Part shown: positions 15,361 through 64,000 of the stretch, one piece after another | Layout: the number at the start of each line of letters is the position of its first letter | Numbering within the stretch: the first letter of the stretch is position 1 | From: Atherinomorus stipes | Taxonomy: Eukaryota > Chordata > Actinopteri > Atheriniformes > Atherinidae | NCBI GenBank assembly: GCA_023101725.1 | Contig: JALJCO010000066.1 | Location: 124,001 to 188,000 of the forward strand | Direction of reading: 5' to 3' | Length of the DNA stretch: 64,000 nt | The notes under the pieces: generated by a model | What the model saw: the letters and a program-made list of their open reading frames with translations, nothing else | The model's database searches: none | Told to the model about the DNA's origin: nothing | Position numbers and translations under genes: made by a program

Positions 15361-15553
15361 GACAGGCTCACCGACGACCTGACCTTGTCTGCAACAGTCT
15401 GTTTTGGTTTTGGTCCAGGCGAGAATGACGTTACAGGCTCACCTGTGTCTTCCATTGTGTAACAGATCATAGTCATGACACCAATTACCAAACATTGTCA
15501 TTTTCCGGTGTTTTTATTTATTTTTTTTTGAGGGGATTTTTTTTGTGCATATG

Positions 15554-15626
15554 ACCCGGCTAGCTCAGTCGGTAGAGCATGAGACTCTTAATCTCAGGGT
15601 CGTGGGTTCGAGCCCCACATTGGCTG
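15554..15626 (+). tRNA. tRNA-Lys(CTT), acceptor stem degraded
   Basis: A cloverleaf can be read: D arm GCTCAGTCGGTAGAGC, anticodon arm GAGACTCTTAATCTC with anticodon CTT, and T arm GTGGGTTCGAGCCCCAC. The acceptor arms ACCCGGC and ATTGGCT leave mismatches at pairs 2-71 and 7-66, unlike the canonical GCCCGGC/GTTGGGC. Internal A and B boxes look intact, so transcription is possible, but function as a tRNA is doubtful. Confidence 0.8.
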
Positions 15627-16128: not shown

Positions 16129-16239
16129 GTCAGGATGGCCGAGCGGTCTAAGGTGCCAGACTCAAGGCTTGTTTCCTTCCTTAAATCTGGGATTTCTGGT
16201 CTCCACATGGAGACGTGGGTTCAAATCCCACTCCTGACA
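16129..16239 (+). tRNA. tRNA-Leu(CAA) with intron
   Basis: The acceptor GTCAGGA pairs fully with TCCTGAC. A long variable arm (GGTCTCCACATGGAGAC) marks a class II tRNA; the T arm is GTGGGTTCAAATCCCAC. The anticodon stem CCAGA/TCTGG encloses CTCAAG and then an intron of about 25 nt (about 16166-16190), as in vertebrate tRNA-Leu(CAA) genes. It looks intact and is the only undamaged tRNA of the cluster. Confidence 0.88.
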
Positions 16240-22831: not shown

Positions 22832-23045
22832 ATGGCAGCTGGCGGCGTGAGTGCAGAAAGCTCCGTCAGAAAAAGACGCGTGGACGGCGGGAGGACAGAG
22901 ACAGACTCCGTCTCCTCGCGCAGGACAGATAATGGAGCAGACACCAGCAGAGACACAGAGAAGGACAAGGGGCTTCTGTCCGTCCAGCCCGGGACTTACT
23001 GGCTCACGCGCATCGTGCTGCTGCGCTCTGTTGCCTTTATTTACT
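22832..23045 (+). CDS. lmf1: lmf1 exon 1
   Basis: The ATG in AACATGG context begins [16 protein letters not shown]; an in-frame upstream ATG at 22745 is less likely because MAA resembles other vertebrate LMF1 starts. A basic and acidic cytosolic tail of about 55 residues precedes the hydrophobic stretch [14 protein letters not shown]. It ends TACT before a GTAAGT donor (71 codons plus 1 nt). The surrounding DNA is CpG-rich. Confidence 0.9.
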
Positions 23046-44000: not shown

Positions 44001-47000
44001 AGAATGAAGCTGCATCATCCAGATTAACGAGCTCCATCAGAACTGTTTAAAATCGGATTTCAGAAGCTACAACTTTAGTTTGGAAATTAATCAGAACACA
44101 CAGTTAAAGAAATCACCAGCGCGCTCACTCTCGACATAATTTAAAAACCTATACAAGATGATTGAAGTAGCCTACTGTTATTATATCTAAATCTTGTAGC
44201 TTCTTCTTTTTTTTAACATGTTAGAGCAGTAATCCATTTGCCATCATCGTATCCGTCTGGTATCCTCTTGTCTGTGTGCAAGCGCGCCGCAGTTTCATAT
44301 GTGGGGGGTTTGGAGGGAAAACTATATTTAATTTTTTCATTTTTTGGCATTTTACCAAATTGTGTTGTGGCAGTAAATATTTATTCATCTCCAGAAGCTA
44401 AACGTCTCATCAGGGACTCGTCATCACTGTTGCAGTTAAGCACCGGACAGCGCCGAGTCAGTGACTCTTTCATTAACACGTTTCATTATGTGGAAAGCCT
44501 TGTTAGAACGGTGGGACGTTTGTGTGTCGGAATGGTGGTATGTTGAAATGACAGTATGTCGGAATGCCAGCATGTAACCGTCTCATGGCTGCTGTCCAGG
44601 GTAGGCCATTCAGCGTTTCTTCGTTAACTCACATATCTGAGCTGCCTGGCTTTGCATTGGAAAAGAGCACCCCATCTATTTTTTTTTTTTTTTTTACCAG
44701 ATCAATCGTGTGAAGGATCGTGGCATTTGATGATCCAACACGACTGCACCATGTTTTAAACTTGTAACAAACTTGTAAATAAAAACAAATAGAATGAGAG
44801 CAGTATTGTGCATGCAGTTGGTGTAAACAAGCTTGACAGTTGACCGTGAGATCCACAATGCATTGCGGTTTTCCCCGTCCTCGACGTCACCCTTTCGAGC
44901 CCTACTGGTACTGCGGGTAACTGCAGCCACCAGCCAAGCCAACCTGGGAACATACACAAACATATTCTATAACACTGTTTACTGTACGTAAGTTCAAAAT
45001 TGAGCTGGTTTCCAGCCTATGTCTGTCCATTGTTGTGTTTGTTGAATAGTGAAAGTAAGAAAAGGCGGGGGAAATGGAAGATAAAGAAGAGGAAGAGTTA
45101 GCTAGGTAAAATAATAAGATGAATTTATTGGGGAAAAATAAGAAAAAAAAGGGTTCTATTAAGATGAAGTTGGGTGAATGATTGTCTGTAAAAAAAAGGA
45201 AAATGGAAATAGAGAAAAAAAATAAGATGAAGAGTAATATAAAAAGGTGTCTGGCTTCCCCACATAAAAGGTGAACTGATTTGGAACCTGTAAAGTCTGT
45301 CAGTAAGATCCTTGATGAGAAACAGTAAACAAGTAGCAGGAGCAAATAGCTTTTAGCCACCAGACCAAAAATCACAGCACCGGCTACTTTCCACACGCAC
45401 ACAAACAACCTGAAGATCACGTCAAGGTCGGATACGTATCTGATAAAGGTCACATGACTGTTAAGACTGCAGGCGCATTTGAAAAAAATCAGATAAAGAT
45501 CGGATTTGGACTACCTCCTGATGTGGCCCAAATCTGATGTAAAAGGATCAGATTTGAAATTGTTTGGAGTGTTTACACTGTCAAAAAAATATCTGGTCTG
45601 TGTCACTTGAGAGCAAAAGATCAGATATGGGCCACTTTTAATGGCAGTGTAAACGGGGCCTCAGACTCGTGAAAAGGGGCATTCGGAAAGAGAGGTTCTA
45701 GGAACATAGTTCCTAGATTTACCCATCTTGAGTTAAGTAATAAGAACTACCCTTCCCCATCAGTTTGCGTTCGTACATGAGGGAAGACCTTTAGTGACCA
45801 TGTTTGACGTAATCAACAGAGAACTTTATGTCCAAGCAGATCTAATACAAAACTGCCCCAAGGCCCCAGAAGTGGTTTTCCCCTCAGACATTGAATTTGT
45901 GACAGTGAGGAGCAGCGTTCTGTGGTGGTGAACAGTGGGTTGCTGTCAATATAAACACTAGGGAAAGTGTTTAATGAACTTGAATGATCTTTAGTCAATA
46001 GAAACCAAACAGCTGCTTATGTGTCCGAGAATACCAAGTGACAATTTTTTTGCCATAACAGGAAAACAGGAACTTTAGACCCCCCTGAGTAAAGACTTGT
46101 TCTGTTACTTGTGACTTTTCCCAAGCTGACTCTAGACTTGACACCAGACTTTTGTTTTAAAGTAACTGTCTCACAGGTGTCCTTCAGTTGTCTCTTACTG
46201 CAATCCAACCGCTGTCAAAGTAACAGTCATCACTGTGTTTTTATCCAAACAGAGTAAAAGATTTTCACAACAAATGATAGCACAAGTGTGAAATTTTTCT
46301 CATAAATGATCTGAGGAGATGAACGCAGCGGCCCTGAAAGTTCAAAACAGTGAGGGTCATGCATGGGGAAAAAGAAGGAGAAAACAAAGTCCTCCTTCCC
46401 TGTCATGCTAGTTTTCAGCGTAGCCTGAGACTCATCAAAGTGTTTGCTTTTGGTCTGGAATGTGAGAGGACTCAGGCTCCGCCCACTATACTGTTGAGGA
46501 TTGGAGGGGTTTTGTCTTTGGCCTTGGGGTTTTCTCCTCAGACATTGAATTTGTGACAAAGTTAGGAGCAGCGTTCTGTGGTGGTGAAACGTGGGTTGCT
46601 GTCAATATAAACACATCCTGGAGTCACTTTGAGCTTGGCTGTGCTAGCTAAGGGGAACAGCTGCTGCAGAGCTTTCGCCGGCCCACAGTGGCAATTGAGC
46701 CAGCAGGGGGTCATGTAGCAGGCCCTGCTCAGGTGCAGATGTGCTTGCACATGCAGCACACATGACAAATTGGATACGATACAGAGAAGATTAGCATGGC
46801 CCCTGCGAAAGGATGACACGCAAATCCGTGAAGCGTAACCACATTTTGTTACTGCCAGGGTTACCAATCCTAGGATTTCCCTAGTGTTATAGCAGCTGCA
46901 CAGTCCCTCTTGGGTTTCCAGCCCCAGGAGTCCTCCATTTCAGTGATGTTTGATGAAGGACAATCTCACAATGACCCACCAGACCAATGTTGGGCTTTAA

Positions 47001-50000
47001 TATTTGACTGAGACACTATTTCTGTATAGTGTTGTGCTGAATAGCACTGACAATCTCACTTGGACTGTTGGAATTCATGACTCCTAGTTTGACTGTGTCC
47101 AGTTAACTTGAATGATCTTTAGTCAATAGAAACCAAACAGCTGCTTATGTGTCCGAGAATACCAAGTGACATTTTTTTTGCCATAACAGGAAAACAGGAA
47201 CTTTAGACCCCCCTGAGTAAAGACTTGTTCTGTTATTTGTGACTTTTCCCATGCTGACTCTAGACTTGACACCAGACTTTTGTTTTAAAGTAACTGTCTC
47301 ACAGGTGTCCTTCAGTTGTCTCTTACTGCAATCCAACCGCTGTCAAAGTAACAGTCATCACTGTGTTTTTATCCAAACAGAGTAAAAGATTTTCACAACA
47401 AATGATAGCACAAGTGTGAAATTTTTCTCATAAATGATCTGAGGAGATGAACGCAGCGGCCCTGAAAGTTCAAAACAGTGAGGGTCATGCATGGGGAAAA
47501 AGAAGGAGAAAACAAAGTCCTCCTTCCCTGTCATGCTAGTTTTCAGCGTAGCCTGAGACTCATCAAAGTGTTTGCTTTTGGTCTGGAATGTGAGAGGACT
47601 CAGGCTCCGCCCACTATACTGTTGAGGATTGGAGGGGTTTTGTCTTTGGCCTTGGGGTTTTCTCCTCAGACATTGAATTTGTGACAAAGTTAGGAGCAGC
47701 GTTCTGTGGTGGTGAAACGTGGGTTGCTGTCAATATAAACACATCCTGGAGTCACTTTGAGCTTGGCTGTGCTAGCTAAGGGGAACAGCTGCTGCAGAGC
47801 TTTCGCCGGCCCACAGTGGCAATTGAGCCAGCAGGGGGTCATGTAGCAGGCCCTGCTCAGGTGCAGATGTGCTTGCACATGCAGCACACATGACAAATTG
47901 GATACGATACAGAGAAGATTAGCATGGCCCCTGCGAAAGGATGACACGCAAATCCGTGAAGCGTAACCACATTTTGTTACTGCCAGGGTTACCAATCCTA
48001 GGATTTCCCTAGTGTTATAGCAGCTGCACAGTCCCTCTTGGGTTTCCAGCCCCAGGAGTCCTCCATTTCAGTGATGTTTGATGAAGGACAATCTCACAAT
48101 GACCCACCAGACCAATGTTGGGCTTTAATATTTGACTGAGACACTATTTCTGTATAGTGTTGTGCTGAATAGCACTGACAATCTCACTTGGACTGTTGGA
48201 ATTCATGACTCCTAGTTTGACTGTGTCCAGTTAACTTGAATGATCTTTAGTCAATAGAAACCAAACAGCTGCTTATGTGTCCGAGAATACCAAGTGACAT
48301 TTTTTTTGCCATAACAGGAAAACAGGAACTTTAGACCCCCCTGAGTAAAGACTTGTTCTGTTATTTGTGACTTTTCCCATGCTGACTCTAGACTTGACAC
48401 CAGACTTTTGTTTTAAAGTAACTGTCTCACAGGTGTCCTTCAGTTGTCTCTTACTGCAATCCAACCGCTGTCAAAGTAACAGTCATCACTGTGTTTTTAT
48501 CCAAACAGAGTAAAAGATTTTCACAACAAATGATAGCACAAGTGTGAAATTTTTCTCATAAATGATCTGAGGAGATGAACGCAGCGGCCCTGAAAGTTCA
48601 AAACAGTGAGGGTCATGCATGGGGAAAAAGAAGGAGAAAACAAAGTCCTCCTTCCCTGTCATGCTAGTTTTCAGCGTAGCCTGAGACTCATCAAAGTGTT
48701 TGCTTTTGGTCTGGAATGTGAGAGGACTCAGGCTCCGCCCACTATACTGTTGAGGATTGGAGGGGTTTTGTCTTTGGCCTTGGGGTTTTCTCCTCAGACA
48801 TTGAATTTGTGACAAAGTTAGGAGCAGCGTTCTGTGGTGGTGAAACGTGGGTTGCTGTCAATATAAACACATCCTGGAGTCACTTTGAGCTTGGCTGTGC
48901 TAGCTAAGGGGAACAGCTGCTGCAGAGCTTTCGCCGGCCCACAGTGGCAATTGAGCCAGCAGGGGGTCATGTAGCAGGCCCTGCTCAGGTGCAGATGTGC
49001 TTGCACATGCAGCACACATGACAAATTGGATACGATACAGAGAAGATTAGCATGGCCCCTGCGAAAGGATGACACGCAAATCCGTGAAGCGTAACCACAT
49101 TTTGTTACTGCCAGGGTTACCAATCCTAGGATTTCCCTAGTGTTATTGCAGCTGCACAGTCCCTCTTGGGTTTCCAGCCCCAGGAGTCCTCCATTTCAGT
49201 GATGTTTGATGAAGGACAATCTCACAATGACCCACCAGACCAATGTTGGGCTTTGATATTTGACTGAGACACTATTTCTGTATAGTGTTGTGCTGAATAG
49301 CACTGACAATCTCACTTGGACTGTTGGAATTCATGACTCCTAGTTTGACTGTGTCCAGTTAACTTGAATGATCTTTAGTCAATAGAAACCAAACAGCTGC
49401 TTATGTGTCCGAGAATACCAAGTGACATTTTTTTTGCCATAACAGGAAAACAGGAACTTTAGACCCCCCTGAGTAAAGACTTGTTCTGTTATTTGTGACT
49501 TTTCCCATGCTGACTCTAGACTTGACACCAGACTTTTGTTTTAAAGTAACTGTCTCACAGGTGTCCTTCAGTTGTCTCTTACTGCAATCCAACCGCTGTC
49601 AAAGTAACAGTCATCACTGTGTTTTTATCCAAACAGAGTAAAAGATTTTCACAACAAATGATGGCACAAGTGTGAAATTTTTCTCATAAATGATCTGAGG
49701 AGATGAACGCAGCGGCCCTGAAAGTTCAAAACAGTGAGGGTCATGCATGGGGAAAAAGAAGGAGAAAACAAAGTCCTCCTTCCCTGTCATGCTAGTTTTC
49801 AGCGTAGCCTGAGACTCATCAAAGTGTTTGCTTTTGGTCTGGAATGTGAGAGGACTCAGGCTCCGCCCACTATACTGTTGAGGATTGGAGGGGTTTTGTC
49901 TTTGGCCTTGGGGTTTTCTCCTCAGACATTGAATTTGTGACAAAGTTAGGAGCAGCGTTCTGTGGTGGTGAAACGTGGGTTGCTGTCAATATAAACACAT

Positions 50001-53000
50001 CCTGGAGTCACTTTGAGCTTGGCTGTGCTAGCTAAGGGGAACAGCTGCTGCAGAGCTTTCGCCGGCCCACAGTGGCAATTGAGCCAGCAGGGGGTCATGT
50101 AGCAGGCCCTGCTCAGGTGCAGATGTGCTTGCACATGCAGCACACATGACAAATTGGATACGATACAGAGAAGATTAGCATGGCCCCTGCGAAAGGATGA
50201 CACGCAAATCCGTGAAGCGTAACCACATTTTGTTACTGCCAGGGTTACCAATCCTAGGATTTCCCTAGTGTTATTGCAGCTGCACAGTCCCTCTTGGGTT
50301 TCCAGCCCCAGGAGTCCTCCATTTCAGTGATGTTTGATGAAGGACAATCTCACAATGACCCACCAGACCAATGTTGGGCTTTGATATTTGACTGAGACAC
50401 TATTTCTGTATAGTGTTGTGCTGAATAGCACTGACAATCTCACTTGGACTGTTGGAATTCATGACTCCTAGTTTGACTGTGTCCAGTTAACTTGAATGAT
50501 CTTTAGTCAATAGAAACCAAACAGCTGCTTATGTGTCCGAGAATACCAAGTGACATTTTTTTTGCCATAACAGGAAAACAGGAACTTTAGACCCCCCTGA
50601 GTAAAGACTTGTTCTGTTATTTGTGACTTTTCCCATGCTGACTCTAGACTTGACACCAGACTTTTGTTTTAAAGTAACTGTCTCACAGGTGTCCTTCAGT
50701 TGTCTCTTACTGCAATCCAACCGCTGTCAAAGTAACAGTCATCACTGTGTTTTTATCCAAACAGAGTAAAAGATTTTCACAACAAATGATAGCACAAGTG
50801 TGAAATTTTTCTCATAAATGATCTGAGGAGATGAACGCAGCGGCCCTGAAAGTTCAAAACAGTGAGGGTCATGCATGGGGAAAAAGAAGGAGAAAACAAA
50901 GTCCTCCTTCCCTGTCATGCTAGTTTTCAGCGTAGCCTGAGACTCATCAAAGTGTTTGCTTTTGGTCTGGAATGTGAGAGGACTCAGGCTCCGCCCACTA
51001 TACTGTTGAGGATTGGAGGGGTTTTGTCTTTGGCCTTGGGGTTTTCTCCTCAGACATTGAATTTGTGACAAAGTTAGGAGCAGCGTTCTGTGGTGGTGAA
51101 ACGTGGGTTGCTGTCAATATAAACACATCCTGGAGTCACTTTGAGCTTGGCTGTGCTAGCTAAGGGGAACAGCTGCTGCAGAGCTTTCGCCGGCCCACAG
51201 TGGCAATTGAGCCAGCAGGGGGTCATGTAGCAGGCCCTGCTCAGGTGCAGATGTGCTTGCACATGCAGCACACATGACAAATTGGATACGATACAGAGAA
51301 GATTAGCATGGCCCCTGCGAAAGGATGACACGCAAATCCGTGAAGCGTAACCACATTTTGTTACTGCCAGGGTTACCAATCCTAGGATTTCCCTAGTGTT
51401 ATTGCAGCTGCACAGTCCCTCTTGGGTTTCCAGCCCCAGGAGTCCTCCATTTCAGTGATGTTTGATGAAGGACAATCTCACAATGACCCACCAGACCAAT
51501 GTTGGGCTTTGATATTTGACTGAGACACTATTTCTGTATAGTGTTGTGCTGAATAGCACTGACAATCTCACTTGGACTGTTGGAATTCATGACTCCTAGT
51601 TTGACTGTGTCCAGTTAACTTGAATGATCTTTAGTCAATAGAAACCAAACAGCTGCTTATGTGTCCGAGAATACCAAGTGACATTTTTTTTGCCATAACA
51701 GGAAAACAGGAACTTTAGACCCCCTGAGTAAAGACTTGTTCTGTTATTTGTGACTTTTCCCATGCTGACTCTAGACTTGACACCAGACTTTTGTTTTAAA
51801 GTAACTGTCTCACAGGTGTCCTTCAGTTGTCTCTTACTGCAATCCAACCGCTGTCAAAGTAACAGTCATCACTGTGTTTTTATCCAAACAGAGTAAAAGA
51901 TTTTCACAACAAATGATAGCACAAGTGTGAAATTTTTCTCATAAATGATCTGAGGAGATGAACGCAGCGGCCCTGAAAGTTCAAAACAGTGAGGGTCATG
52001 CATGGGGAAAAAGAAGGAGAAAACAAAGTCCTCCTTCCCTGTCATGCTAGTTTTCAGCGTAGCCTGAGACTCATCAAAGTGTTTGCTTTTGGTCTGGAAT
52101 GTGAGAGGACTCAGGCTCCGCCCACTATACTGTTGAGGATTGGAGGGGTTTTGTCTTTGGCCTTGGGGTTTTCTCCTCAGACATTGAATTTGTGACAAAG
52201 TTAGGAGCAGCGTTCTGTGGTGGTGAAACGTGGGTTGCTGTCAATATAAACACATCCTGGAGTCACTTTGAGCTTGGCTGTGCTAGCTAAGGGGAACAGC
52301 TGCTGCAGAGCTTTCGCCGGCCCACAGTGGCAATTGAGCCAGCAGGGGGTCATGTAGCAGGCCCTGCTCAGGTGCAGATGTGCTTGCACATGCAGCACAC
52401 ATGACAAATTGGATACGATACAGAGAAGATTAGCATGGCCCCTGCGAAAGGATGACACGCAAATCCGTGAAGCGTAACCACATTTTGTTACTGCCAGGGT
52501 TACCAATCCTAGGATTTCCCTAGTGTTATTGCAGCTGCACAGTCCCTCTTGGGTTTCCAGCCCCAGGAGTCCTCCATTTCAGTGATGTTTGATGAAGGAC
52601 AATCTCACAATGACCCACCAGACCAATGTTGGGCTTTGATATTTGACTGAGACACTATTTCTGTATAGTGTTGTGCTGAATAGCACTGACAATCTCACTT
52701 GGACTGTTGGAATTCATGACTCCTAGTTTGCCTGTGTCCAGTTAACTTGAATGATCTTTAGTCAATAGAAACCAAACAGCTGCTTATGTGTCCGAGAATA
52801 CCAAGTGACATTTTTTTTTGCCATAACAGGAAAACAGGAACTTTAGACCCCCCTGAGTAAAGACTTGTTCTGTTATTTGTGACTTTTCCCATGCTGACTC
52901 TAGACTTGACACCAGACTTTTGTTTTAAAGTAACTGTCTCACAGGTGTCCTTCAGTTGTCTCTTACTGCAATCCAACCGCTGTCAAAGTAACAGTCATCA

Positions 53001-56000
53001 CTGTGTTTTTATCCAAACAGAGTAAAAGATTTTCACAACAAATGATAGCACAAGTGTGAAATTTTTCTCATAAATGATCTGAGGAGATGAACGCAGCGGC
53101 CCTGAAAGTTCAAAACAGTGAGGGTCATGCATGGGGAAAAAGAAGGAGAAAACAAAGTCCTCCTTCCCTGTCATGCTAGTTTTCAGCGTAGCCTGAGACT
53201 CATCAAAGTGTTTGCTTTTGGTCTGGAATGTGAGAGGACTCAGGCTCCGCCCACTATACTGTTGAGGATTGGAGGGGTTTTGTCTTTGGCCTTGGGGTTT
53301 TCTCCTCAGACATTGAATTTGTGACAAAGTTAGGAGCAGCGTTCTGTGGTGGTGAAACGTGGGTTGCTGTCAATATAAACACATCCTGGAGTCACTTTGA
53401 GCTTGGCTGTGCTAGCTAAGGGGAACAGCTGCTGCAGAGCTTTCGCCGGCCCACAGTGGCAATTGAGCCAGCAGGGGGTCATGTAGCAGGCCCTGCTCAG
53501 GTGCAGATGTGCTTGCACATGCAGCACACATGACAAATTGGATACGATACAGAGAAGATTAGCATGGCCCCTGCGAAAGGATGACACGCAAATCCGTGAA
53601 GCGTAACCACATTTTGTTACTGCCAGGGTTACCAATCCTAGGATTTCCCTAGTGTTATTGCAGCTGCACAGTCCCTCTTGGGTTTCCAGCCCCAGGAGTC
53701 CTCCATTTCAGTGATGTTTGATGAAGGACAATCTCACAATGACCCACCAGACCAATGTTGGGCTTTGATATTTGACTGAGACACTATTTCTGTATAGTGT
53801 TGTGCTGAATAGCACTGACAATCTCACTTGGACTGTTGGAATTCATGACTCCTAGTTTGACTGTGTCCAGTTAACTTGAATGATCTTTAGTCAATAGAAA
53901 CCAAACAGCTGCTTATGTGTCCGAGAATACCAAGTGACATTTTTTTTGCCATAACAGGAAAACAGGAACTTTAGACCCCCCTGAGTAAAGACTTGTTCTG
54001 TTACTTGTGACTTTTCCCAAGCTGACTCTAGACTTGACACCAGACTTTTGTTTTAAAGTAACTGTCTCACAGGTGTCCTTCAGTTGTCTATTACTGCAAT
54101 CCAACCGCTGTCAAAGTAGCAGTCATCACTGTGTTTTTATCCAAACAGAGTAAAAGATTTTCACAACAAATGATAGCACAAGTGTGAAATTTTTCTCATA
54201 CGTAAATGATCTGAGGAGATGAACGCAGCGGCCCTGAAAGTTCAAAACAGTGAGGGTCATGCATGGGGAAAAAGAAGGAGAAAACAAAGTCCTCCTTCCC
54301 TGTCATACTAGTTTTCAGCGTAGCCTGAGACTCATCAAAGTGTTTGCTTTTGGTCTGGAATGTGAGAGGACTCAGGCTCCGCCCACTATACTGTTGAGGA
54401 TTGGAGGGGGTTTGTCTTTGGCCTTGGGGTTTTCCCCTCAGACATTGAATTTGTGACAAAGTTCGGAGCAGCGTTCTGTGGTGGCGAAACGTGGGTTGCT
54501 GTCATTATAAACACATCCTGGAGTCACTTTGAGCTTGGCTGTGCTAGCTAAGGGGAACAGCTGCTGCAGAGCTTTCGCCGGCCCACAGTGGCAATTGAGC
54601 CAGCAGGGGGTCATGTAGCAGGCCCTGCTCAGGTGCAGATGTGCTTGCACATGCAGCACACATGACAAATTGGATACGATACAGAGAAGATTAGCATGGC
54701 CCCTGCGAAAGGATGACACGCAAATCCGTGAAGCGTAACCACATTTTGTTACTGCCGGGGTTACCAATCCTAGGATTTCCCTAGTGTTATAGCAGCTGCA
54801 CAGTCCCTCTTGGTTTTCCAGCCCCAGGAGTCCCCCATTTCAGTGATGTTTGATTAAGGACAATCTCACAATGACCCACCAGACCAATGTTGGGCTTTAA
54901 TATTTGACTGAGACACTATTTCTGTATAGTGTTGTGCTGAATAGCACTGACAATCTCACTTGGACTGTTGGAATTCATGACTCGTAGTTTGACTGTGTCC
55001 AGTTAACTTGAATGATCTTTAGTCAATAGAAACCAAACAGCTGCTTATGTGTCCGAGAATACCAAGTGACAATTTTTTGCCATAACAGGAAAACAGGAAC
55101 TTTAGACCCCCCTGAGTAAAGACTTGTTCTGTTACTTGTGACTTTTCCCAAGCTGACTCTAGACTTGACACCAGACTTTTGTTTTAAAGTAACTGTCTCA
55201 CAGGTGTCCTTCAGTTGTCTATTACTGCAATCCAACCGCTGTCAAAGTAGCAGTCATCACTGTGTTTTTATCCAAACAGAGTAAAAGATTTTCACAACAA
55301 ATGATAGCACAAGTGTGAAATTTTTCTCATACGTAAATGATCTGAGGAGATGAACGCAGCGGCCCTGAAAGTTCAAAACAGTGAGGGTCATGCATGGGGA
55401 AAAAGAAGGAGAAAACAAAGTCCTCCTTCCCTGTCATACTAGTTTTCAGCGTAGCCTGAGACTCATCAAAGTGTTTGCTTTTGGTCTGGAATGTGAGAGG
55501 ACTCAGGCTCCGCCCACTATACTGTTGAGGATTGGAGGGGGTTTGTCTTTGGCCTTGGGGTTTTCCCCTCAGACATTGAATTTGTGACAAAGTTCGGAGC
55601 AGCGTTCTGTGGTGGCGAAACGTGGGTTGCTGTCATTATAAACACATCCTGGAGTCACTTTGAGCTTGGCTGTGCTAGCTAAGGGGAACAGCTGCTGCAG
55701 AGCTTTCGCCGGCCCACAGTGGCAATTGAGCCAGCAGGGGGTCATGTAGCAGGCCCTGCTCAGGTGCAGATGTGCTTGCACATGCAGCACACATGACAAA
55801 TTGGATACGATACAGAGAAGATTAGCATGGCCCCTGCGAAAGGATGACACGCAAATCCGTGAAGCGTAACCACATTTTGTTACTGCCGGGGTTACCAATC
55901 CTAGGATTTCCCTAGTGTTATAGCAGCTGCACAGTCCCTCTTGGTTTTCCAGCCCCAGGAGTCCCCCATTTCAGTGATGTTTGATTAAGGACAATCTCAC

Positions 56001-59000
56001 AATGACCCACCAGACCAATGTTGGGCTTTAATATTTGACTGAGACACTATTTCTGTATAGTGTTGTGCTGAATAGCACTGACAATCTCACTTGGACTGTT
56101 GGAATTCATGACTCGTAGTTTGACTGTGTCCAGTTAACTTGAATGATCTTTAGTCAATAGAAACCAAACAGCTGCTTATGTGTCCGAGAATACCAAGTGA
56201 CATTTTTTTTGCCATAACAGGAAAACAGGAACTTTAGACCCCCCTGAGTAAAGACTTGTTCTGTTACTTGTGACTTTTCCCAAGCTGACTCTAGACTTGA
56301 CACCAGACTTTTGTTTTAAAGTAACTGTCTCACAGGTGTCCTTCAGTTGTCTATTACTGCAATCCAACCGCTGTCAAAGTAGCAGTCATCACTGTGTTTT
56401 TATCCAAACAGAGTAAAAGATTTTCACAACAAATGATAGCACAAGTGTGAAATTTTTCTCATACGTAAATGATCTGAGGAGATGAACGCAGCGGCCCTGA
56501 AAGTTCAAAACAGTGAGGGTCATGCATGGGGAAAAAGAAGGAGAAAACAAAGTCCTCCTTCCCTGTCATACTAGTTTTCAGCGTAGCCTGAGACTCATCA
56601 AAGTGTTTGCTTTTGGTCTGGAATGTGAGAGGACTCAGGCTCCGCCCACTATACTGTTGAGGATTGGAGGGGGTTTGTCTTTGGCCTTGGGGTTTTCCCC
56701 TCAGACATTGAATTTGTGACAAAGTTCGGAGCAGCGTTCTGTGGTGGCGAAACGTGGGTTGCTGTCATTATAAACACATCCTGGAGTCACTTTGAGCTTG
56801 GCTGTGCTAGCTAAGGGGAACAGCTGCTGCAGAGCTTTCGCCGGCCCACAGTGGCAATTGAGCCAGCAGGGGGTCATGTAGCAGGCCCTGCTCAGGTGCA
56901 GATGTGCTTGCACATGCAGCACACATGACAAATTGGATACGATACAGAGAAGATTAGCATGGCCCCTGCGAAAGGATGACACGCAAATCCGTGAAGCGTA
57001 ACCACATTTTGTTACTGCCGGGGTTACCAATCCTAGGATTTCCCTAGTGTTATAGCAGCTGCACAGTCCCTCTTGGTTTTCCAGCCCCAGGAGTCCCCCA
57101 TTTCAGTGATGTTTGATTAAGGACAATCTCACAATGACCCACCAGACCAATGTTGGGCTTTAATATTTGACTGAGACACTATTTCTGTATAGTGTTGTGC
57201 TGAATAGCACTGACAATCTCACTTGGACTGTTGGAATTCATGACTCGTAGTTTGACTGTGTCCAGTTAACTTGAATGATCTTTAGTCAATAGAAACCAAA
57301 CAGCTGCTTATGTGTCCGAGAATACCAAGTGACAATTTTTTGCCATAACAGGAAAACAGGAACTTTAGACCCCCCTGAGTAAAGACTTGTTCTGTTACTT
57401 GTGACTTTTCCCAAGCTGACTCTAGACTTGACACCAGACTTTTGTTTTAAAGTAACTGTCTCACAGGTGTCCTTCAGTTGTCTATTACTGCAATCCAACC
57501 GCTGTCAAAGTAGCAGTCATCACTGTGTTTTTATCCAAACAGAGTAAAAGATTTTCACAACAAATGATAGCACAAGTGTGAAATTTTTCTCATACGTAAA
57601 TGATCTGAGGAGATGAACGCAGCGGCCCTGAAAGTTCAAAACAGTGAGGGTCATGCATGGGGAAAAAGAAGGAGAAAACAAAGTCCTCCTTCCCTGTCAT
57701 ACTAGTTTTCAGCGTAGCCTGAGACTCATCAAAGTGTTTGCTTTTGGTCTGGAATGTGAGAGGACTCAGGCTCCGCCCACTATACTGTTGAGGATTGGAG
57801 GGGGTTTGTCTTTGGCCTTGGGGTTTTCCCCTCAGACATTGAATTTGTGACAAAGTTCGGAGCAGCGTTCTGTGGTGGCGAAACGTGGGTTGCTGTCATT
57901 ATAAACACATCCTGGAGTCACTTTGAGCTTGGCTGTGCTAGCTAAGGGGAACAGCTGCTGCAGAGCTTTCGCCGGCCCACAGTGGCAATTGAGCCAGCAG
58001 GGGGTCATGTAGCAGGCCCTGCTCAGGTGCAGATGTGCTTGCACATGCAGCACACATGACAAATTGGATACGATACAGAGAAGATTAGCATGGCCCCTGC
58101 GAAAGGATGACACGCAAATCCGTGAAGCGTAACCACATTTTGTTACTGCCGGGGTTACCAATCCTAGGATTTCCCTAGTGTTATAGCAGCTGCACAGTCC
58201 CTCTTGGTTTTCCAGCCCCAGGAGTCCCCCATTTCAGTGATGTTTGATTAAGGACAATCTCACAATGACCCACCAGACCAATGTTGGGCTTTAATATTTG
58301 ACTGAGACACTATTTCTGTATAGTGTTGTGCTGAATAGCACTGACAATCTCACTTGGACTGTTGGAATTCATGACTCGTAGTTTGACTGTGTCCAGTTAA
58401 CTTGAATGATCTTTAGTCAATAGAAACCAAACAGCTGCTTATGTGTCCGAGAATACCAAGTGACAATTTTTTGCCATAACAGGAAAACAGGAACTTTAGA
58501 CCCCCCTGAGTAAAGACTTGTTCTGTTACTTGTGACTTTTCCCAAGCTGACTCTAGACTTGACACCAGACTTTTGTTTTAAAGTAACTGTCTCACAGGTG
58601 TCCTTCAGTTGTCTATTACTGCAATCCAACCGCTGTCAAAGTAGCAGTCATCACTGTGTTTTTATCCAAACAGAGTAAAAGATTTTCACAACAAATGATA
58701 GCACAAGTGTGAAATTTTTCTCATACGTAAATGATCTGAGGAGATGAACGCAGCGGCCCTGAAAGTTCAAAACAGTGAGGGTCATGCATGGGGAAAAAGA
58801 AGGAGAAAACAAAGTCCTCCTTCCCTGTCATACTAGTTTTCAGCGTAGCCTGAGACTCATCAAAGTGTTTGCTTTTGGTCTGGAATGTGAGAGGACTCAG
58901 GCTCCGCCCACTATACTGTTGAGGATTGGAGGGGGTTTGTCTTTGGCCTTGGGGTTTTCCCCTCAGACATTGAATTTGTGACAAAGTTCGGAGCAGCGTT

Positions 59001-62000
59001 CTGTGGTGGCGAAACGTGGGTTGCTGTCATTATAAACACATCCTGGAGTCACTTTGAGCTTGGCTGTGCTAGCTAAGGGGAACAGCTGCTGCAGAGCTTT
59101 CGCCGGCCCACAGTGGCAATTGAGCCAGCAGGGGGTCATGTAGCAGGCCCTGCTCAGGTGCAGATGTGCTTGCACATGCAGCACACATGACAAATTGGAT
59201 ACGATACAGAGAAGATTAGCATGGCCCCTGCGAAAGGATGACACGCAAATCCGTGAAGCGTAACCACATTTTGTTACTGCCGGGGTTACCAATCCTAGGA
59301 TTTCCCTAGTGTTATAGCAGCTGCACAGTCCCTCTTGGTTTTCCAGCCCCAGGAGTCCCCCATTTCAGTGATGTTTGATTAAGGACAATCTCACAATGAC
59401 CCACCAGACCAATGTTGGGCTTTAATATTTGACTGAGACACTATTTCTGTATAGTGTTGTGCTGAATAGCACTGACAATCTCACTTGGACTGTTGGAATT
59501 CATGACTCGTAGTTTGACTGTGTCCAGTTAACTTGAATGATCTTTAGTCAATAGAAACCAAACAGCTGCTTATGTGTCCGAGAATACCAAGTGACAATTT
59601 TTTGCCATAACAGGAAAACAGGAACTTTAGACCCCCCTGAGTAAAGACTTGTTCTGTTACTTGTGACTTTTCCCAAGCTGACTCTAGACTTGACACCAGA
59701 CTTTTGTTTTAAAGTAACTGTCTCACAGGTGTCCTTCAGTTGTCTATTACTGCAATCCAACCGCTGTCAAAGTAGCAGTCATCACTGTGTTTTTATCCAA
59801 ACAGAGTAAAAGATTTTCACAACAAATGATAGCACAAGTGTGAAATTTTTCTCATACGTAAATGATCTGAGGAGATGAACGCAGCGGCCCTGAAAGTTCA
59901 AAACAGTGAGGGTCATGCATGGGGAAAAAGAAGGAGAAAACAAAGTCCTCCTTCCCTGTCATACTAGTTTTCAGCGTAGCCTGAGACTCATCAAAGTGTT
60001 TGCTTTTGGTCTGGAATGTGAGAGGACTCAGGCTCCGCCCACTATACTGTTGAGGATTGGAGGGGGTTTGTCTTTGGCCTTGGGGTTTTCCCCTCAGACA
60101 TTGAATTTGTGACAAAGTTCGGAGCAGCGTTCTGTGGTGGCGAAACGTGGGTTGCTGTCATTATAAACACATCCTGGAGTCACTTTGAGCTTGGCTGTGC
60201 TAGCTAAGGGGAACAGCTGCTGCAGAGCTTTCGCCGGCCCACAGTGGCAATTGAGCCAGCAGGGGGTCATGTAGCAGGCCCTGCTCAGGTGCAGATGTGC
60301 TTGCACATGCAGCACACATGACAAATTGGATACGATACAGAGAAGATTAGCATGGCCCCTGCGAAAGGATGACACGCAAATCCGTGAAGCGTAACCACAT
60401 TTTGTTACTGCCGGGGTTACCAATCCTAGGATTTCCCTAGTGTTATAGCAGCTGCACAGTCCCTCTTGGTTTTCCAGCCCCAGGAGTCCCCCATTTCAGT
60501 GATGTTTGATTAAGGACAATCTCACAATGACCCACCAGACCAATGTTGGGCTTTAATATTTGACTGAGACACTATTTCTGTATAGTGTTGTGCTGAATAG
60601 CACTGACAATCTCACTTGGACTGTTGGAATTCATGACTCGTAGTTTGACTGTGTCCAGTTAACTTGAATGATCTTTAGTCAATAGAAACCAAACAGCTGC
60701 TTATGTGTCCGAGAATACCAAGTGACAATTTTTTGCCATAACAGGAAAACAGGAACTTTAGACCCCCCTGAGTAAAGACTTGTTCTGTTACTTGTGACTT
60801 TTCCCAAGCTGACTCTAGACTTGACACCAGACTTTTGTTTTAAAGTAACTGTCTCACAGGTGTCCTTCAGTTGTCTATTACTGCAATCCAACCGCTGTCA
60901 AAGTAGCAGTCATCACTGTGTTTTTATCCAAACAGAGTAAAAGATTTTCACAACAAATGATAGCACAAGTGTGAAATTTTTCTCATACGTAAATGATCTG
61001 AGGAGATGAACGCAGCGGCCCTGAAAGTTCAAAACAGTGAGGGTCATGCATGGGGAAAAAGAAGGAGAAAACAAAGTCCTCCTTCCCTGTCATACTAGTT
61101 TTCAGCGTAGCCTGAGACTCATCAAAGTGTTTGCTTTTGGTCTGGAATGTGAGAGGACTCAGGCTCCGCCCACTATACTGTTGAGGATTGGAGGGGGTTT
61201 GTCTTTGGCCTTGGGGTTTTCCCCTCAGACATTGAATTTGTGACAAAGTTCGGAGCAGCGTTCTGTGGTGGCGAAACGTGGGTTGCTGTCATTATAAACA
61301 CATCCTGGAGTCACTTTGAGCTTGGCTGTGCTAGCTAAGGGGAACAGCTGCTGCAGAGCTTTCGCCGGCCCACAGTGGCAATTGAGCCAGCAGGGGGTCA
61401 TGTAGCAGGCCCTGCTCAGGTGCAGATGTGCTTGCACATGCAGCACACATGACAAATTGGATACGATACAGAGAAGATTAGCATGGCCCCTGCGAAAGGA
61501 TGACACGCAAATCCGTGAAGCGTAACCACATTTTGTTACTGCCGGGGTTACCAATCCTAGGATTTCCCTAGTGTTATAGCAGCTGCACAGTCCCTCTTGG
61601 TTTTCCAGCCCCAGGAGTCCCCCATTTCAGTGATGTTTGATTAAGGACAATCTCACAATGACCCACCAGACCAATGTTGGGCTTTAATATTTGACTGAGA
61701 CACTATTTCTGTATAGTGTTGTGCTGAATAGCACTGACAATCTCACTTGGACTGTTGGAATTCATGACTCGTAGTTTGACTGTGTCCAGTTAACTTGAAT
61801 GATCTTTAGTCAATAGAAACCAAACAGCTGCTTATGTGTCCGAGAATACCAAGTGACAATTTTTTGCCATAACAGGAAAACAGGAACTTTAGACCCCCCT
61901 GAGTAAAGACTTGTTCTGTTACTTGTGACTTTTCCCAAGCTGACTCTAGACTTGACACCAGACTTTTGTTTTAAAGTAACTGTCTCACAGGTGTCCTTCA

Positions 62001-64000
62001 GTTGTCTATTACTGCAATCCAACCGCTGTCAAAGTAGCAGTCATCACTGTGTTTTTATCCAAACAGAGTAAAAGATTTTCACAACAAATGATAGCACAAG
62101 TGTGAAATTTTTCTCATACGTAAATGATCTGAGGAGATGAACGCAGCGGCCCTGAAAGTTCAAAACAGTGAGGGTCATGCATGGGGAAAAAGAAGGAGAA
62201 AACAAAGTCCTCCTTCCCTGTCATACTAGTTTTCAGCGTAGCCTGAGACTCATCAAAGTGTTTGCTTTTGGTCTGGAATGTGAGAGGACTCAGGCTCCGC
62301 CCACTATACTGTTGAGGATTGGAGGGGGTTTGTCTTTGGCCTTGGGGTTTTCCCCTCAGACATTGAATTTGTGACAAAGTTCGGAGCAGCGTTCTGTGGT
62401 GGCGAAACGTGGGTTGCTGTCATTATAAACACATCCTGGAGTCACTTTGAGCTTGGCTGTGCTAGCTAAGGGGAACAGCTGCTGCAGAGCTTTCGCCGGC
62501 CCACAGTGGCAATTGAGCCAGCAGGGGGTCATGTAGCAGGCCCTGCTCAGGTGCAGATGTGCTTGCACATGCAGCACACATGACAAATTGGATACGATAC
62601 AGAGAAGATTAGCATGGCCCCTGCGAAAGGATGACACGCAAATCCGTGAAGCGTAACCACATTTTGTTACTGCCGGGGTTACCAATCCTAGGATTTCCCT
62701 AGTGTTATAGCAGCTGCACAGTCCCTCTTGGTTTTCCAGCCCCAGGAGTCCCCCATTTCAGTGATGTTTGATTAAGGACAATCTCACAATGACCCACCAG
62801 ACCAATGTTGGGCTTTAATATTTGACTGAGACACTATTTCTGTATAGTGTTGTGCTGAATAGCACTGACAATCTCACTTGGACTGTTGGAATTCATGACT
62901 CGTAGTTTGACTGTGTCCAGTTAACTTGAATGATCTTTAGTCAATAGAAACCAAACAGCTGCTTATGTGTCCGAGAATACCAAGTGACAATTTTTTGCCA
63001 TAACAGGAAAACAGGAACTTTAGACCCCCCTGAGTAAAGACTTGTTCTGTTACTTGTGACTTTTCCCAAGCTGACTCTAGACTTGACACCAGACTTTTGT
63101 TTTAAAGTAACTGTCTCACAGGTGTCCTTCAGTTGTCTATTACTGCAATCCAACCGCTGTCAAAGTAGCAGTCATCACTGTGTTTTTATCCAAACAGAGT
63201 AAAAGATTTTCACAACAAATGATAGCACAAGTGTGAAATTTTTCTCATACGTAAATGATCTGAGGAGATGAACGCAGCGGCCCTGAAAGTTCAAAACAGT
63301 GAGGGTCATGCATGGGGAAAAAGAAGGAGAAAACAAAGTCCTCCTTCCCTGTCATACTAGTTTTCAGCGTAGCCTGAGACTCATCAAAGTGTTTGCTTTT
63401 GGTCTGGAATGTGAGAGGACTCAGGCTCCGCCCACTATACTGTTGAGGATTGGAGGGGGTTTGTCTTTGGCCTTGGGGTTTTCCCCTCAGACATTGAATT
63501 TGTGACAAAGTTCGGAGCAGCGTTCTGTGGTGGCGAAACGTGGGTTGCTGTCATTATAAACACATCCTGGAGTCACTTTGAGCTTGGCTGTGCTAGCTAA
63601 GGGGAACAGCTGCTGCAGAGCTTTCGCCGGCCCACAGTGGCAATTGAGCCAGCAGGGGGTCATGTAGCAGGCCCTGCTCAGGTGCAGATGTGCTTGCACA
63701 TGCAGCACACATGACAAATTGGATACGATACAGAGAAGATTAGCATGGCCCCTGCGAAAGGATGACACGCAAATCCGTGAAGCGTAACCACATTTTGTTA
63801 CTGCCGGGGTTACCAATCCTAGGATTTCCCTAGTGTTATAGCAGCTGCACAGTCCCTCTTGGTTTTCCAGCCCCAGGAGTCCCCCATTTCAGTGATGTTT
63901 GATTAAGGACAATCTCACAATGACCCACCAGACCAATGTTGGGCTTTAATATTTGACTGAGACACTATTTCTGTATAGTGTTGTGCTGAATAGCACTGAC
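22832..64000 (+). CDS. lmf1: lipase maturation factor 1, 5' part (exons 1-3 in window; 3' end outside)
   Basis: LMF1 is a multipass ER membrane protein needed for folding and dimer assembly of lipoprotein, hepatic and endothelial lipases. Exons seen: 22832-23045 (N-terminal cytosolic tail and start of the first membrane segment), 28803-29112 (rest of that segment and the first lumenal region), and 35233-35243 (11 nt). The joined product contains [20 protein letters not shown], then [33 protein letters not shown], a second hydrophobic segment, and [13 protein letters not shown], all LMF1-specific. Splice phases agree (214, 310 and 11 nt; next phase 1). The next expected piece (WESQLLETGF-like) was not found up to 45.8 kb, so intron 3 apparently runs through or into the U6-bearing tandem array, unless the assembly is wrong there. 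Orientation head to head with sox8 matches human SOX8/LMF1. Confidence 0.9.
23302..23430. mobile_element. partial TTAA-type MITE
   Basis: TTAAAGTGCTGATGACATGA and the following CATCATG, AACAGAAACAGGCGTACCTG match the complement of the right end of the element at 2747-3906. Confidence 0.6.
23572..23650. mobile_element. solo hAT end
   Basis: TTAGAGTTGTTCCGATAC, then GGAAATGTCTCCGTATC, matches the complement of the right end of the hAT element at 26498-27790. Confidence 0.6.
24090..24366. repeat. dispersed repeat copy 2
   Basis: Direct partner of 22180-22450. The two flank lmf1 exon 1, so recombination between them would remove that exon. Confidence 0.65.
24371..25507. mobile_element. TTAA-flanked MITE (AGGAGCYCTATCATG-like termini)
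   Basis: AGGAGCCCTATCATG at the left, CATGATACAGCTCCT at the right; TTAA at 24367-24370 and 25508-25511. The right TTAA also begins AGGTGCCATGACATC, the terminus of another fish element. Confidence 0.7.
26498..27790 (-). mobile_element. hAT transposon remnant with BED zinc finger
   Basis: The inverted ends TAGAGATGTTCCGATACC and TAGAGTTGTTCCGATTCC are flanked by 8-bp duplications GCGATGTT (26490-26497) and GCAATGTT (27791-27798), as in hAT elements. It is an internally deleted copy: only the N-terminal transposase part remains. Confidence 0.85.
27028..27507 (-). pseudogene. hAT transposase N-terminal fragment (BED finger, ZBED-like)
   Basis: 159 residues from [13 protein letters not shown]. 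It has a BED-type finger: W-YF, CKIC, then H-K-RH ([13 protein letters not shown]), and the downstream motif [20 protein letters not shown] with [11 protein letters not shown], typical of ZBED1/4-like hAT transposases. The frame is open but lacks the catalytic RNase H fold and dimerisation region, so it could at most make a DNA-binding fragment. Confidence 0.85.
27814..28643. mobile_element. hAT-like MITE (TAGGGTTGTCATGATAC termini)
   Basis: TAGGGTTGTCATGATACG at the left and TATTTTTGACAACCCTA at the right. Flanks CATCTGAT and GACCTGAT match at 6 of 8, a decayed target duplication. Interior holds (TAA) and (CA) microsatellites. Confidence 0.65.
28803..29112 (+). CDS. lmf1: lmf1 exon 2
   Basis: The acceptor is CTTCCTTCCAG. 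The exon continues the first membrane segment ([10 protein letters not shown]) into the first lumenal region and a second hydrophobic helix ([20 protein letters not shown]). It ends CTCTG before a GTAAGT donor, leaving 2 nt of the tryptophan codon. 310 nt. Confidence 0.95.
29456..29546 (+). mobile_element. short AT-rich MITE
   Basis: TAGGGCTGTCAGGCGATT at the left and AAACTGACAGCCCTA at the right; about 90 bp, mostly TAATTAA. Same family as 10742-10826. Confidence 0.6.
29602..30035. mobile_element. MITE (GCCYCATTTCYACYWG termini)
   Basis: TAGCCTCATTTCTACTAGTGG at the left is inverted at the right (GCAGGTGGAAATGGGGCTTT). The interior has GACCCGACCC motifs on both sides. Confidence 0.5.
30059..30458 (+). 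mobile_element. hAT-type MITE copy 1 (TAGGGATGTAACGATA)
   Basis: 400 bp, ends TAGGGATGTAACGATAAC and TATTGTTACATCCCTA, flanked by CTTACTAC / CTTCCTAC (7 of 8). Confidence 0.8.
31140..31526 (-). mobile_element. hAT-type MITE copy 2, opposite orientation
   Basis: 387 bp, same family as 30059-30458 but inverted (GTTTTAACGATGATTAAAA versus its complement). Perfect 8-bp duplication CCCCTGTC at 31132-31139 and 31527-31534, so a recent insertion. Confidence 0.85.
31850..32404 (+). mobile_element. L2-like LINE, 5'-truncated
   Basis: The ORF at 31801-32199 contains [32 protein letters not shown] and [19 protein letters not shown], the conserved end of L2-clade ORF2. The 3' tail TGCTTTATAAATAAATTTGA fits L2. 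Only the last 115 or so codons remain. Confidence 0.82.
32675..33375. mobile_element. TTAA-flanked MITE nested in the right arm of the 4.4-kb element
   Basis: AGGGACACCATGTAAATTTT at the left, TTACACAGTATCCCT at the right; TTAA at 32671-32674 and 33376-33379. Removing it joins GATTGTT-TTAA-TGAC, which matches GATTGTTTTTCATGAC of the intact left arm at 29361-29376 (complement). Confidence 0.75.
32830..33176. mobile_element. hAT-type MITE nested in the 32675-33375 element
   Basis: Ends TGGGGCTGCCATGG and GTGGTAGCCCA, perfect 8-bp duplication ATCCATAA (32822-32829, 33177-33184). Interior of TAGTCGAC / GTTGACTA type motifs. Confidence 0.8.
35233..35243 (+). CDS. lmf1: lmf1 exon 3 (11-nt microexon)
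   Basis: The sequence GTACTCCTTTG lies between a pyrimidine-rich acceptor (TTTTTCTCTTTCCAG) and a GTAAGTG donor. Joined to exon 2 (TG|G) it gives WYSFG, exactly the continuation expected in LMF1 (NVGHVWYSFGWES in human). The phase passes correctly into the next exon. Too short for ORF detection; found from the protein match plus splice sites. Confidence 0.8.
35392..36948 (-). mobile_element. Tc1-like transposon, near full length, dead
   Basis: 1557 bp between TA dinucleotides, with inverted ends AGTGGGTACGGAAAG and CTTTCCGTACCCACT. The minus-strand transposase is broken: an N-terminal helix-turn-helix part (36373-36579, [20 protein letters not shown]) and a later part (35857-36126, [14 protein letters not shown]) lie in separate frames. 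Same family as 6617-7671. Confidence 0.88.
37046..37412. mobile_element. MITE (GGCCCTTTCAGACTTGC termini)
   Basis: Left GGCCCTTTCAGACTTGCG; right GCAAGTCTGAAAGGGGC. Interior symmetrical in parts (TGCGGCACGT, TTCCGCAACA). The long minus ORF across it is chance. Confidence 0.6.
37413..38720. other. unassigned sequence in lmf1 intron 3
   Basis: No gene or clear repeat termini recognised. Confidence 0.55.
38780..39060. repeat. T-rich low-complexity tract
   Basis: Almost only T with scattered G (TTTTTGTTTT type), including a run of about 30 T near 38842-38870. Confidence 0.9.
39108..40041. mobile_element. foldback-type element with about 190-bp arms
   Basis: CATCCTAATATTAATTTAGG and GCGGGGTTGTGGAG at the left return inverted at the right (CTCCACAACCCCGCCCCTAA ATGAATATTAGGATG). 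Inner arms also pair (GATCGCGGTGAATCGTG with CACGATTCACGCGATC; AAGGCTGGAACAG with CTGTTCCAGCCTT). No transposase recognised inside. Confidence 0.7.
40060..40570. repeat. AAATAAATAACTAAAT-type satellite-like repeat
   Basis: Imperfect AATAAATAACT/TAAATAAA repeats over 500 bp. Confidence 0.85.
40735..41720. other. possible decayed hAT-like MITE
   Basis: TAGGTATGACCGATATTATC at the left and GTCAATATCGAACATCCCT at the right could be eroded inverted ends; a C13 tract lies at 41038-41052. Confidence 0.3.
42173..42442 (-). pseudogene. possible Penelope-like retroelement C-terminal fragment
   Basis: The minus ORF reads [15 protein letters not shown], then [20 protein letters not shown]. This resembles the end of fish Penelope-like proteins (VFKRW-KEA-EI...NRDEG-Y-LSH-WD). 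The match is from memory of a weak motif; no GIY-YIG or RT core seen nearby. Confidence 0.35.
42935..43036 (+). pseudogene. decayed single copy of the U6 3' part plus satellite flank
   Basis: About 3 kb before the array, GCAGAGATTAGCATGGCC (42943-42960) followed by CCTGCAAAAGGATG matches the U6 core. After a deletion comes GTGTTATACCAGCTG and TTGGGTTTCCAGCCCCAGGA, which match the satellite segment directly 3' of U6. It is diverged and lacks the U6 5' half and the rest of the unit. It shows that U6 plus this 3' flank existed as a single copy here, or that a fragment was transposed. Confidence 0.75.
43040..45867. other. unassigned sequence before the array
   Basis: No gene recognised. A palindromic TATCTGATCTTTATC-like segment (45470-45665) with AAATCTGATGTAAAAGGATC looks like a MITE part; a T15 tract lies at 44681-44695. 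Confidence 0.5.
46741..46847 (+). ncRNA. U6: U6 snRNA-like sequence, copy 1
   Basis: 107 nt, the length of vertebrate U6. The 5' stem-loop reads GTGCTTGCACATGCAGCAC: the outer GTGCT/AGCAC arms are as in U6, and the inner part differs but can pair. The ACAGAGA box, the AGC of TTAGCATGG and the CACG/CGTG internal stem-loop are intact; from CGATACAGAG to GTGAAGCG (59 nt) I count two differences from human U6. The 3' end is altered (TAACCACATTTTG in place of TTCCATATTTTT), with only four T. At -30 there is no TATA box (TCATGTA is found), and no recognisable PSE near -65. A known relative is certain; whether it is transcribed is open, and a U6 pseudogene carried by the satellite is the simplest reading. 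Confidence 0.85.
47869..47975 (+). ncRNA. U6: U6 snRNA-like, copy 2 (subfamily A)
   Basis: Identical over 107 nt to copy 1 and 1128 bp downstream. Its unit still shares TTATAGCAGC and CTTTAATATT with unit 1. Confidence 0.85.
48997..49103 (+). ncRNA. U6: U6 snRNA-like, copy 3 (subfamily A)
   Basis: U6 part unchanged. Downstream flank switches to TTATTGCAGC and CTTTGATATT, variants kept through copy 7. Confidence 0.85.
50125..50231 (+). ncRNA. U6: U6 snRNA-like, copy 4 (subfamily A)
   Basis: U6 part unchanged. The preceding spacer has a private ATGGCAC for ATAGCAC change near 49661. Confidence 0.85.
51253..51359 (+). ncRNA. U6: U6 snRNA-like, copy 5 (subfamily A)
   Basis: U6 part unchanged; the following spacer has one C fewer in the run near 51720. 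Confidence 0.85.
52380..52486 (+). ncRNA. U6: U6 snRNA-like, copy 6 (subfamily A)
   Basis: U6 part unchanged; spacing 1127 bp from copy 5. Private TTTGCCTG for TTTGACTG near 52728. Confidence 0.85.
53509..53615 (+). ncRNA. U6: U6 snRNA-like, copy 7 (last of subfamily A)
   Basis: U6 part unchanged; spacing 1129 bp through one extra T in the poly-T near 52811. The A-to-B switch follows at about 53.9-54.2 kb. Confidence 0.85.
54641..54747 (+). ncRNA. U6: U6 snRNA-like, copy 8 (first of subfamily B)
   Basis: U6 part unchanged although the spacer now carries the B variants, including TCATACGTAAATG upstream and ACTGCCGGGG just downstream. Confidence 0.85.
55772..55878 (+). ncRNA. U6: U6 snRNA-like, copy 9 (subfamily B)
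   Basis: U6 part unchanged; upstream T-run is of the GACAATTTTTTGCC form. Confidence 0.85.
56904..57010 (+). ncRNA. U6: U6 snRNA-like, copy 10 (subfamily B)
   Basis: U6 part unchanged; 1132-bp spacing because the T-run is of the GACATTTTTTTTGCC form, shared with unit 8. Confidence 0.85.
58035..58141 (+). ncRNA. U6: U6 snRNA-like, copy 11 (subfamily B)
   Basis: U6 part unchanged; first of a run of six units with constant 1131-bp spacing. Confidence 0.85.
59166..59272 (+). ncRNA. U6: U6 snRNA-like, copy 12 (subfamily B)
   Basis: U6 part and spacer match copy 11 wherever compared. Confidence 0.85.
60297..60403 (+). ncRNA. U6: U6 snRNA-like, copy 13 (subfamily B)
   Basis: U6 part and spacer match copy 11 wherever compared. 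Confidence 0.85.
61428..61534 (+). ncRNA. U6: U6 snRNA-like, copy 14 (subfamily B)
   Basis: U6 part and spacer match copy 11 wherever compared. Confidence 0.85.
62559..62665 (+). ncRNA. U6: U6 snRNA-like, copy 15 (subfamily B)
   Basis: U6 part and spacer match copy 11 wherever compared. Confidence 0.85.
63690..63796 (+). ncRNA. U6: U6 snRNA-like, copy 16 (subfamily B)
   Basis: Last complete copy in the window; its 3' spacer continues to base 64000, so the array is cut by the window end. Confidence 0.85.

Follow-up and report, generated by a model that had tools for sequence, protein, structure and literature searches.

A tandem array of U6 snRNA genes lies toward the right end of the window analyzed here (64,000 bp; contig C36, positions 124001-188000). 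These genes appear to encode a second type of U6 (class 2), probably germline or maternal, that has coevolved with its own U4, a reading to which we give a probability of about 0.6. The sequence shows a tandem array, gene-like conservation of the U6, an upstream region that differs from that of ordinary U6 genes and, in U4 genes elsewhere in the genome, a matching change.

Layout and surroundings of the array

Sixteen matches to the U6 model RF00026 were found on the forward strand between 46741 and 63796, each spanning model positions 1-105 in full and scoring 93.0 bits against a cut-off of 44. The units are arranged head to tail with a U6-to-U6 spacing of 1127-1132 bp, and unit 16 is truncated at the window end. 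The first-pass annotation, which had read at least 16 such units of about 1.13 kb with a 107-nt U6, is thus upheld in both the U6 assignment and the count. A 17th copy follows just past the window, and the 107 nt, ending in TTTT, are identical in all 17 copies, so the proposal that the array is a reservoir of U6 variants does not hold for the array itself. Unequal exchange or gene conversion may be what keeps the tandem copies identical. No Dada insertion splits any of the 17 U6 copies, all of which are intact.

The units fall into two types. A 4-bp indel and 13-19 aligned sites distinguish units 1-7 (type A) from units 8-16 (type B), whereas differences within a type amount to 0-1 sites in type B and 0-8 sites in type A. 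The left edge of the array is a partial, diverged unit from which about 490 bp are missing, the U6 included. Outside the array, a degenerate U6 relic resembles the array unit (BLAST identity of 93.1% over 29 nt and 90.2% over 51 nt), with an alignment score of 111.9 compared to a maximum of 45.6 in 50 shuffles. Because the relic holds pieces of both the U6 and the 3' flank of the unit, the array has probably been at this site for some time. The near identity of the type B units and the contig end within the array could be taken as signs of a false expansion of one unit during assembly. Such an artefact is very improbable given the two ordered subfamilies, the diverged edge unit and the old relic nearby, and a false expansion is less likely than the collapse of a longer array. 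The contig ends at 189434, after the 17th U6 and some 62 bp inside the matched stretch of the 18th spacer; therefore, window and contig give no true array length, and a large copy-number-variable locus with the contig broken inside the array is possible.

The spacer is specific to this locus, as all 18 matches of a 349-nt spacer piece in the genome (1,181,554,812 bp in 7656 contigs) are inside the array and none is dispersed. The array is absent from the Tandem Repeats Finder list because the longest period there was 500. Within the array unit, matches to other Rfam families were below cut-off only. One frame of the unit was considered as a coding exon and rejected, as it has no Pfam or solved-structure match and is broken in the edge unit. 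Searches of viral contigs with variant U6 words returned 0 and 0 matches.

Exons 1 and 2 of lmf1 are located upstream of the array on the same strand. No LMF1 stretch was recovered between 29100 and 46900 by Pfam in three frames, a method that also misses exon 2 itself; tblastn with the 79 proteins matching that exon likewise recovered none on its right side. The array likely sits in lmf1 intron 2, as seen from the side of exons 1 and 2 only. Farther left, the window contains a Sox gene frame, which we take to be sox8 from its neighbourhood, a Tc1-type transposase frame (9916-10653, + strand), a BED zinc-finger frame (27028-27555, - strand) and a degenerate tandem repeat (14370-15366) whose frames repeat words like SLDRSSLCTGQV. 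A tRNA-Lys(CTT) was called by ARAGORN, together with two Rfam tRNA matches, at 15554-15626 and 16129-16239 in partly repeated surroundings, and a near-palindrome at 17178-17277 gives sub-threshold matches to the mir-2300 and mir-4716 models on each strand.

Table 1. Positions of the features discussed, in window coordinates
Feature	Position	Strand	Evidence or remark
Sox gene frame (Sox_N and HMG box)	12276-12692	-	Pfam
lmf1 exon 1 (end approximate)	22832..23044	+	tblastn, fish LMF1-like proteins
Open frame with lmf1 exon 2	28751..29116	+	79 matching proteins, several annotated as lipase maturation factor 1
Degenerate U6 relic and 3' flank pieces, outside array	42903..43033	+	RF00026 23.4 bits, below cut-off
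Partial diverged edge unit, array left edge	45874..46040	+	BLAST to unit positions 488-574 (93.1%) and 1065-1128 (100%); alignment
Array units 1-7, type A, 1127-1132 bp	46041..53940	+	U6 starts 46741, 47869, 48997, 50125, 51253, 52380, 53509
Distal 13-mer TAGTGGGCGGAGC of unit 1 (-265), common to class-2 U4 genes	46476..46488	-	motif picked by eye
Unit 1 5' flank (-217..-1), common to four other class-2 U6 loci	46524..46740	+	70-73% identity to L014-17
Best-kept proximal block of unit 1 (-66..-19)	46675..46722	+	39-40/48 identical, array vs L014-17
U6 snRNA gene, unit 1	46741..46847	+	RF00026 93.0 bits; identical in the 16 units of the window
Array units 8-16, type B, 1131-1132 bp, unit 16 cut	53941..64000	+	runs past window to contig end
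Type B U6 starts	54641, 55772, 56904, 58035, 59166, 60297, 61428, 62559, 63690	+	RF00026

Two classes of U6 genes and the conservation of their core

The genome-wide search with RF00026, in which 48 of 107703 first-look candidates were scored, returned 26 matches, 24 of them above cut-off. A 28-base U6 core pattern with up to two mismatches allowed was likewise found at 24 places, all of them exact (reversed control, 0). These intact cores consist of the 17 in the array, which make up most of those in the genome, four sister loci that form class 2 together with the array (L014-17, on contigs C972, C1878, C4055 and C4439) and three ordinary genes (class 1, on contigs C307, C5154 and C6605). That no copy has one or two core mismatches argues against a swarm of young pseudogenes. 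The ordinary vertebrate U6 genes (L011-L013) share with class 2 the RNA recognized by RF00026, the core, the paired 5' stem and the T-run terminator. What sets the array and L014-16 apart from class 1 is a C-to-A change, giving GCGAAA where class 1 has GCGCAA; L017, assigned to class 2 by its flank, retains GCGCAA plus an inserted G. The array is both multicopy and distinct in sequence from the ordinary type, with 17 copies versus three class-1 genes. The 5' stem-loops of the ordinary genes L001-L003 are very different from one another, still with 6-7 of 7 pairs and one with a GAAA loop. By eye, L018 is a relic of the U6 3' half, and in L019 (C1854) the U6 5' half seems to be repeated head to tail near locus position 3044, as a minisatellite.

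If the U6 were under no constraint, it would be expected to diverge as its flank has. Between the array and L014, 149 of 211 positions are identical in the 5' flank, compared with 48 of 48 at U6 nt 37-84 and 93 of 106 over the whole U6; the perfect core would arise at the flank rate with P = 5.6e-8. For L017, the flank matches at 142 of 195 positions and the core at 46 of 48 with one gap (P = 4.3e-5 for at most two mismatches in 48). For the rest of the U6, conservation does not significantly exceed that of the flank (P = 0.33). The 5' stem has all seven pairs in six of seven rows of differing U6 types and six of seven in L002, as counted after manual removal of the bulge present in the array and L017. 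The ACAGAGA and internal stem-loop core has thus stayed intact under selection beside a flank of 70-73% identity. This is hard to explain by conversion from class-1 genes, because the array and L014-16 share GCGAAA and class 1 has GCGCAA. The tandem array is real, and the second U6 gene class that it represents is, judging from conservation, probably functional.

These observations do not support the earlier suggestion of a satellite that captured a U6 pseudogene, as a similar 5' flank and the U6 occur together at four other loci, conservation of the core by far exceeds that of the flank and a U4 carries the matching change (see below). A satellite would be tandem and lack gene-like conservation; the array is tandem, but its U6 core is conserved across loci. 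A U6 retropseudogene would have no homologous 5' gene flank, and here at least 217 bp are common to the array and L014-17, with the homology stopping just past the U6 TTTT. The repeat-rich surroundings of L014-16, which include a repeat of about 300 bp that also occurs beside a U1 array, the degenerate relic at 42.9 kb and the lack of a canonical U6 promoter at -30 would all be compatible with a dead or selfish element, i.e., a repeat with a U6-like end that spread to several places and by chance expanded in tandem here. This is unlikely, given a perfect core against a flank diverged by 29%, the retained 5' stem and the compensating U4; moreover, 24 copies in 1.18 Gb (counting those with up to two core mismatches) are few for a mobile element.

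Partner U4 genes and upstream regions

Predicted pairs follow the U4/U6 stem II pairing scheme, by which the change from GCGCAA to GCGAAA should break one stem II pair. The compensation predicted, U4 G to U, was set down before any U4 search result and was then found. The U4 search (41 of 72288 candidates scored) returned 23 matches, all above cut-off, of which one (L038) is of the ordinary type. The compensating change is present in 15 of the 23, within CCUUUCGCAG, the exact complement of CUGCGAAAGG, and seven of the 23 have other changes in the helix. Among the 23, the variants are CCTTTCGCAG (15), CCTTTCACAG (2), CCTTTTGCAG (1) and CCTTCCGCAG (1); L058-60 are three copies that diverge more. 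The many copies go back to a single compensating change, which is counted as one. All U4 matches but L038 and L060 are held in clusters on C6550 and C227. In these class-2 clusters (L039-L059), copies occur on both strands at intervals of about 1-2 kb, and class-2 U4 copies are far more variable than the U6 array.

The class-2 U4 starts with AUCCUUUCGCAG and pairs over 12 bp with CUGCGAAAGGAU, the matching U6/U4 words being GCGAAA/CCUUUCGC. The array U6 is predicted to pair well with a U4 of the same genome, its 12-bp stem II with the class-2 U4 having a predicted energy of -25.6, compared with -22.4 for the class-1 cognates. The mixed combinations are -15.9 for class-1 U4 with array U6 and -21.1 for class-2 U4 with class-1 U6. 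Consistently, the longer cofold gains are -9.6 (class 1), -12.2 (array) and -10.0 (L014) for cognates versus -4.9, -6.8 and -5.7 for mixed pairs. Based on both measures, the array RNA has a clear preference for the class-2 U4. Judged by stem II alone, the barrier in the other direction is weak: the pair of class-2 U4 and class-1 U6 falls only slightly short of the class-1 cognates, which suggests weak insulation on that side. The U6 of L017 fits neither U4 well (-18.6 with class 1, -17.3 with class 2).

The upstream regions of the two classes also differ. Class-1 genes L011-13 have a TATA-like box at -29/-30 and CCCATCATGCA near -260, and class 2 has neither; no TATA was found near -30 in the array or L014-17, and TATAAA occurs elsewhere, at -135 in the array and -349 in L017. 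The class-2 flank is best kept at about -207..-127 and -67..-17. Its proximal block (-66..-19), in which GAGCCAGCAG lies at 46697-46706 of unit 1, occupies the place of the class-1 proximal promoter and differs from it in a by-eye comparison. Near -41, this block contains CCAGCAGRGGG (one mismatch in L015), presumably a resemblance to the CTCF core. The distal ZNF143-like site CCCANNATGCA is exact in all four class-1 U4/U6 genes, whereas class-2 genes have 1-3 mismatches to it (1-2 in class-2 U6). No octamer match was found in either class within 400 bp upstream (306 bp for L014). At the canonical places, none of the known U6 promoter parts was found in class 2. These genes thus look like U6 genes without textbook promoter parts; the class-2 promoter would lack both a TATA at -30 and an exact ZNF143-like site and would have a conserved 5' region of its own.

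A distal 13-mer, TAGTGGGCGGRGC, is exact in 19 of 20 class-2-like U4 genes (L039-L058; L059 and L060 left out), both array types and L017, as scanned over 400 bp upstream (306 bp for L014). L014-16 have 3-4 mismatches and the four class-1 genes 4-6, and in 55.8 kb of background there are 0 matches with 0-1 mismatch and two with up to two. Among 1000 Markov resamples, words of at least 12 were shared between the array and L040 in 22, and words of at least 11 between L017 and L040 in 88; class-1 pairs share words of 8-10 too. As a post hoc motif, the shared 13-mer is weak evidence alone. Extension of the promoter split to U1 was considered and rejected, as the tandem U1 on C7476 lacks the ZNF143-like site but also lacks the 13-mer; CCCANNATGCA is exact in three of the four U1 genes examined. 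The tandem U1 group (L061, C7476:454503-462994) has a spacing of about 648 bp, the copy read being without the ZNF143-like site, and a repeat of about 300 bp in its flank recurs at 75-80% in L014-16.

Precedents and a possible second U4/U6 pair

A tandem U6 array is known in Xenopus tropicalis. In fish, 5S and U2 arrays have been treated (PMC3544641), and "U6 arrays" holding Dada-U6 transposons are reported for salmon, medaka and stickleback (PMC3706591). The latter are teleost U6 genes in arrays as here, a likeness drawn from a description in the consulted part of that source without unit length, promoter or partner U4. With the maternal-specific U1 and U6 genes in Region-2 of zebrafish chromosome 4R (PMC11075544, citing Pagano et al. 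bioRxiv 858944) also in print, the initial impression that such an array was not described is too strong. Target duplications in zebrafish U6 are GCGAAA or GCGCAA at nt 65-70 (PMC3706591), and the former imply U6 with the same C-to-A change there. The zebrafish maternal U6 is thus comparable to class 2 in having many copies of a non-ordinary type, with a GCGAAA U6 deduced there too; the array here is unlike it in being a regular 1.13-kb tandem beside lmf1. Stage-specific snRNA isoforms such as the embryonic U1 and U4 of Xenopus (PMC4291461) likewise place a second isoform beside the ordinary one, although the isoform switching treated there concerns U1, U2, U4 and U5 and the array here is U6. 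In the literature surveyed, in the parts consulted, no statement of a compensated U4/U6 pair was found; Pagano et al. (bioRxiv 858944) may contain one.

By analogy with zebrafish, class-2 U6 is probably used maternally. The evidence for function from sequence is silent on tissue, and a functional second U6 class might instead be an isoform of the soma or of all tissues. We consider this the less likely possibility, though a more serious one than a selfish element, in view of the zebrafish precedent of maternal multicopy U6 (PMC11075544), the stage-specific snRNA isoforms of several animals (PMC4291461) and the ZNF143-like sites that are present in ordinary genes and not in class 2. Under maternal use, the array genes would be transcribed by Pol III, ending at TTTT, and their tandem copies would supply the high demand in the egg. 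The class-2 U6 would be used in the oocyte and co-assemble with the separate, clustered second U4 through the compensated, longer stem II.

Tentatively, and at somewhat less than even odds, the array and the U4 clusters may represent a second U4/U6 pair, i.e., an at least partly insulated alternative major spliceosome with its U6 genes in tandem and a promoter free of TATA and ZNF143 sites. Such a pair would be set apart by the C-to-A change in U6 and the G-to-U change in U4, plus two extra stem II pairs. It is an open question in the field whether the spliceosome of eggs is truly a different one. As one base decides cognate pairing, U4 and U6 types that match their own partner better would offer a direct genetic test.
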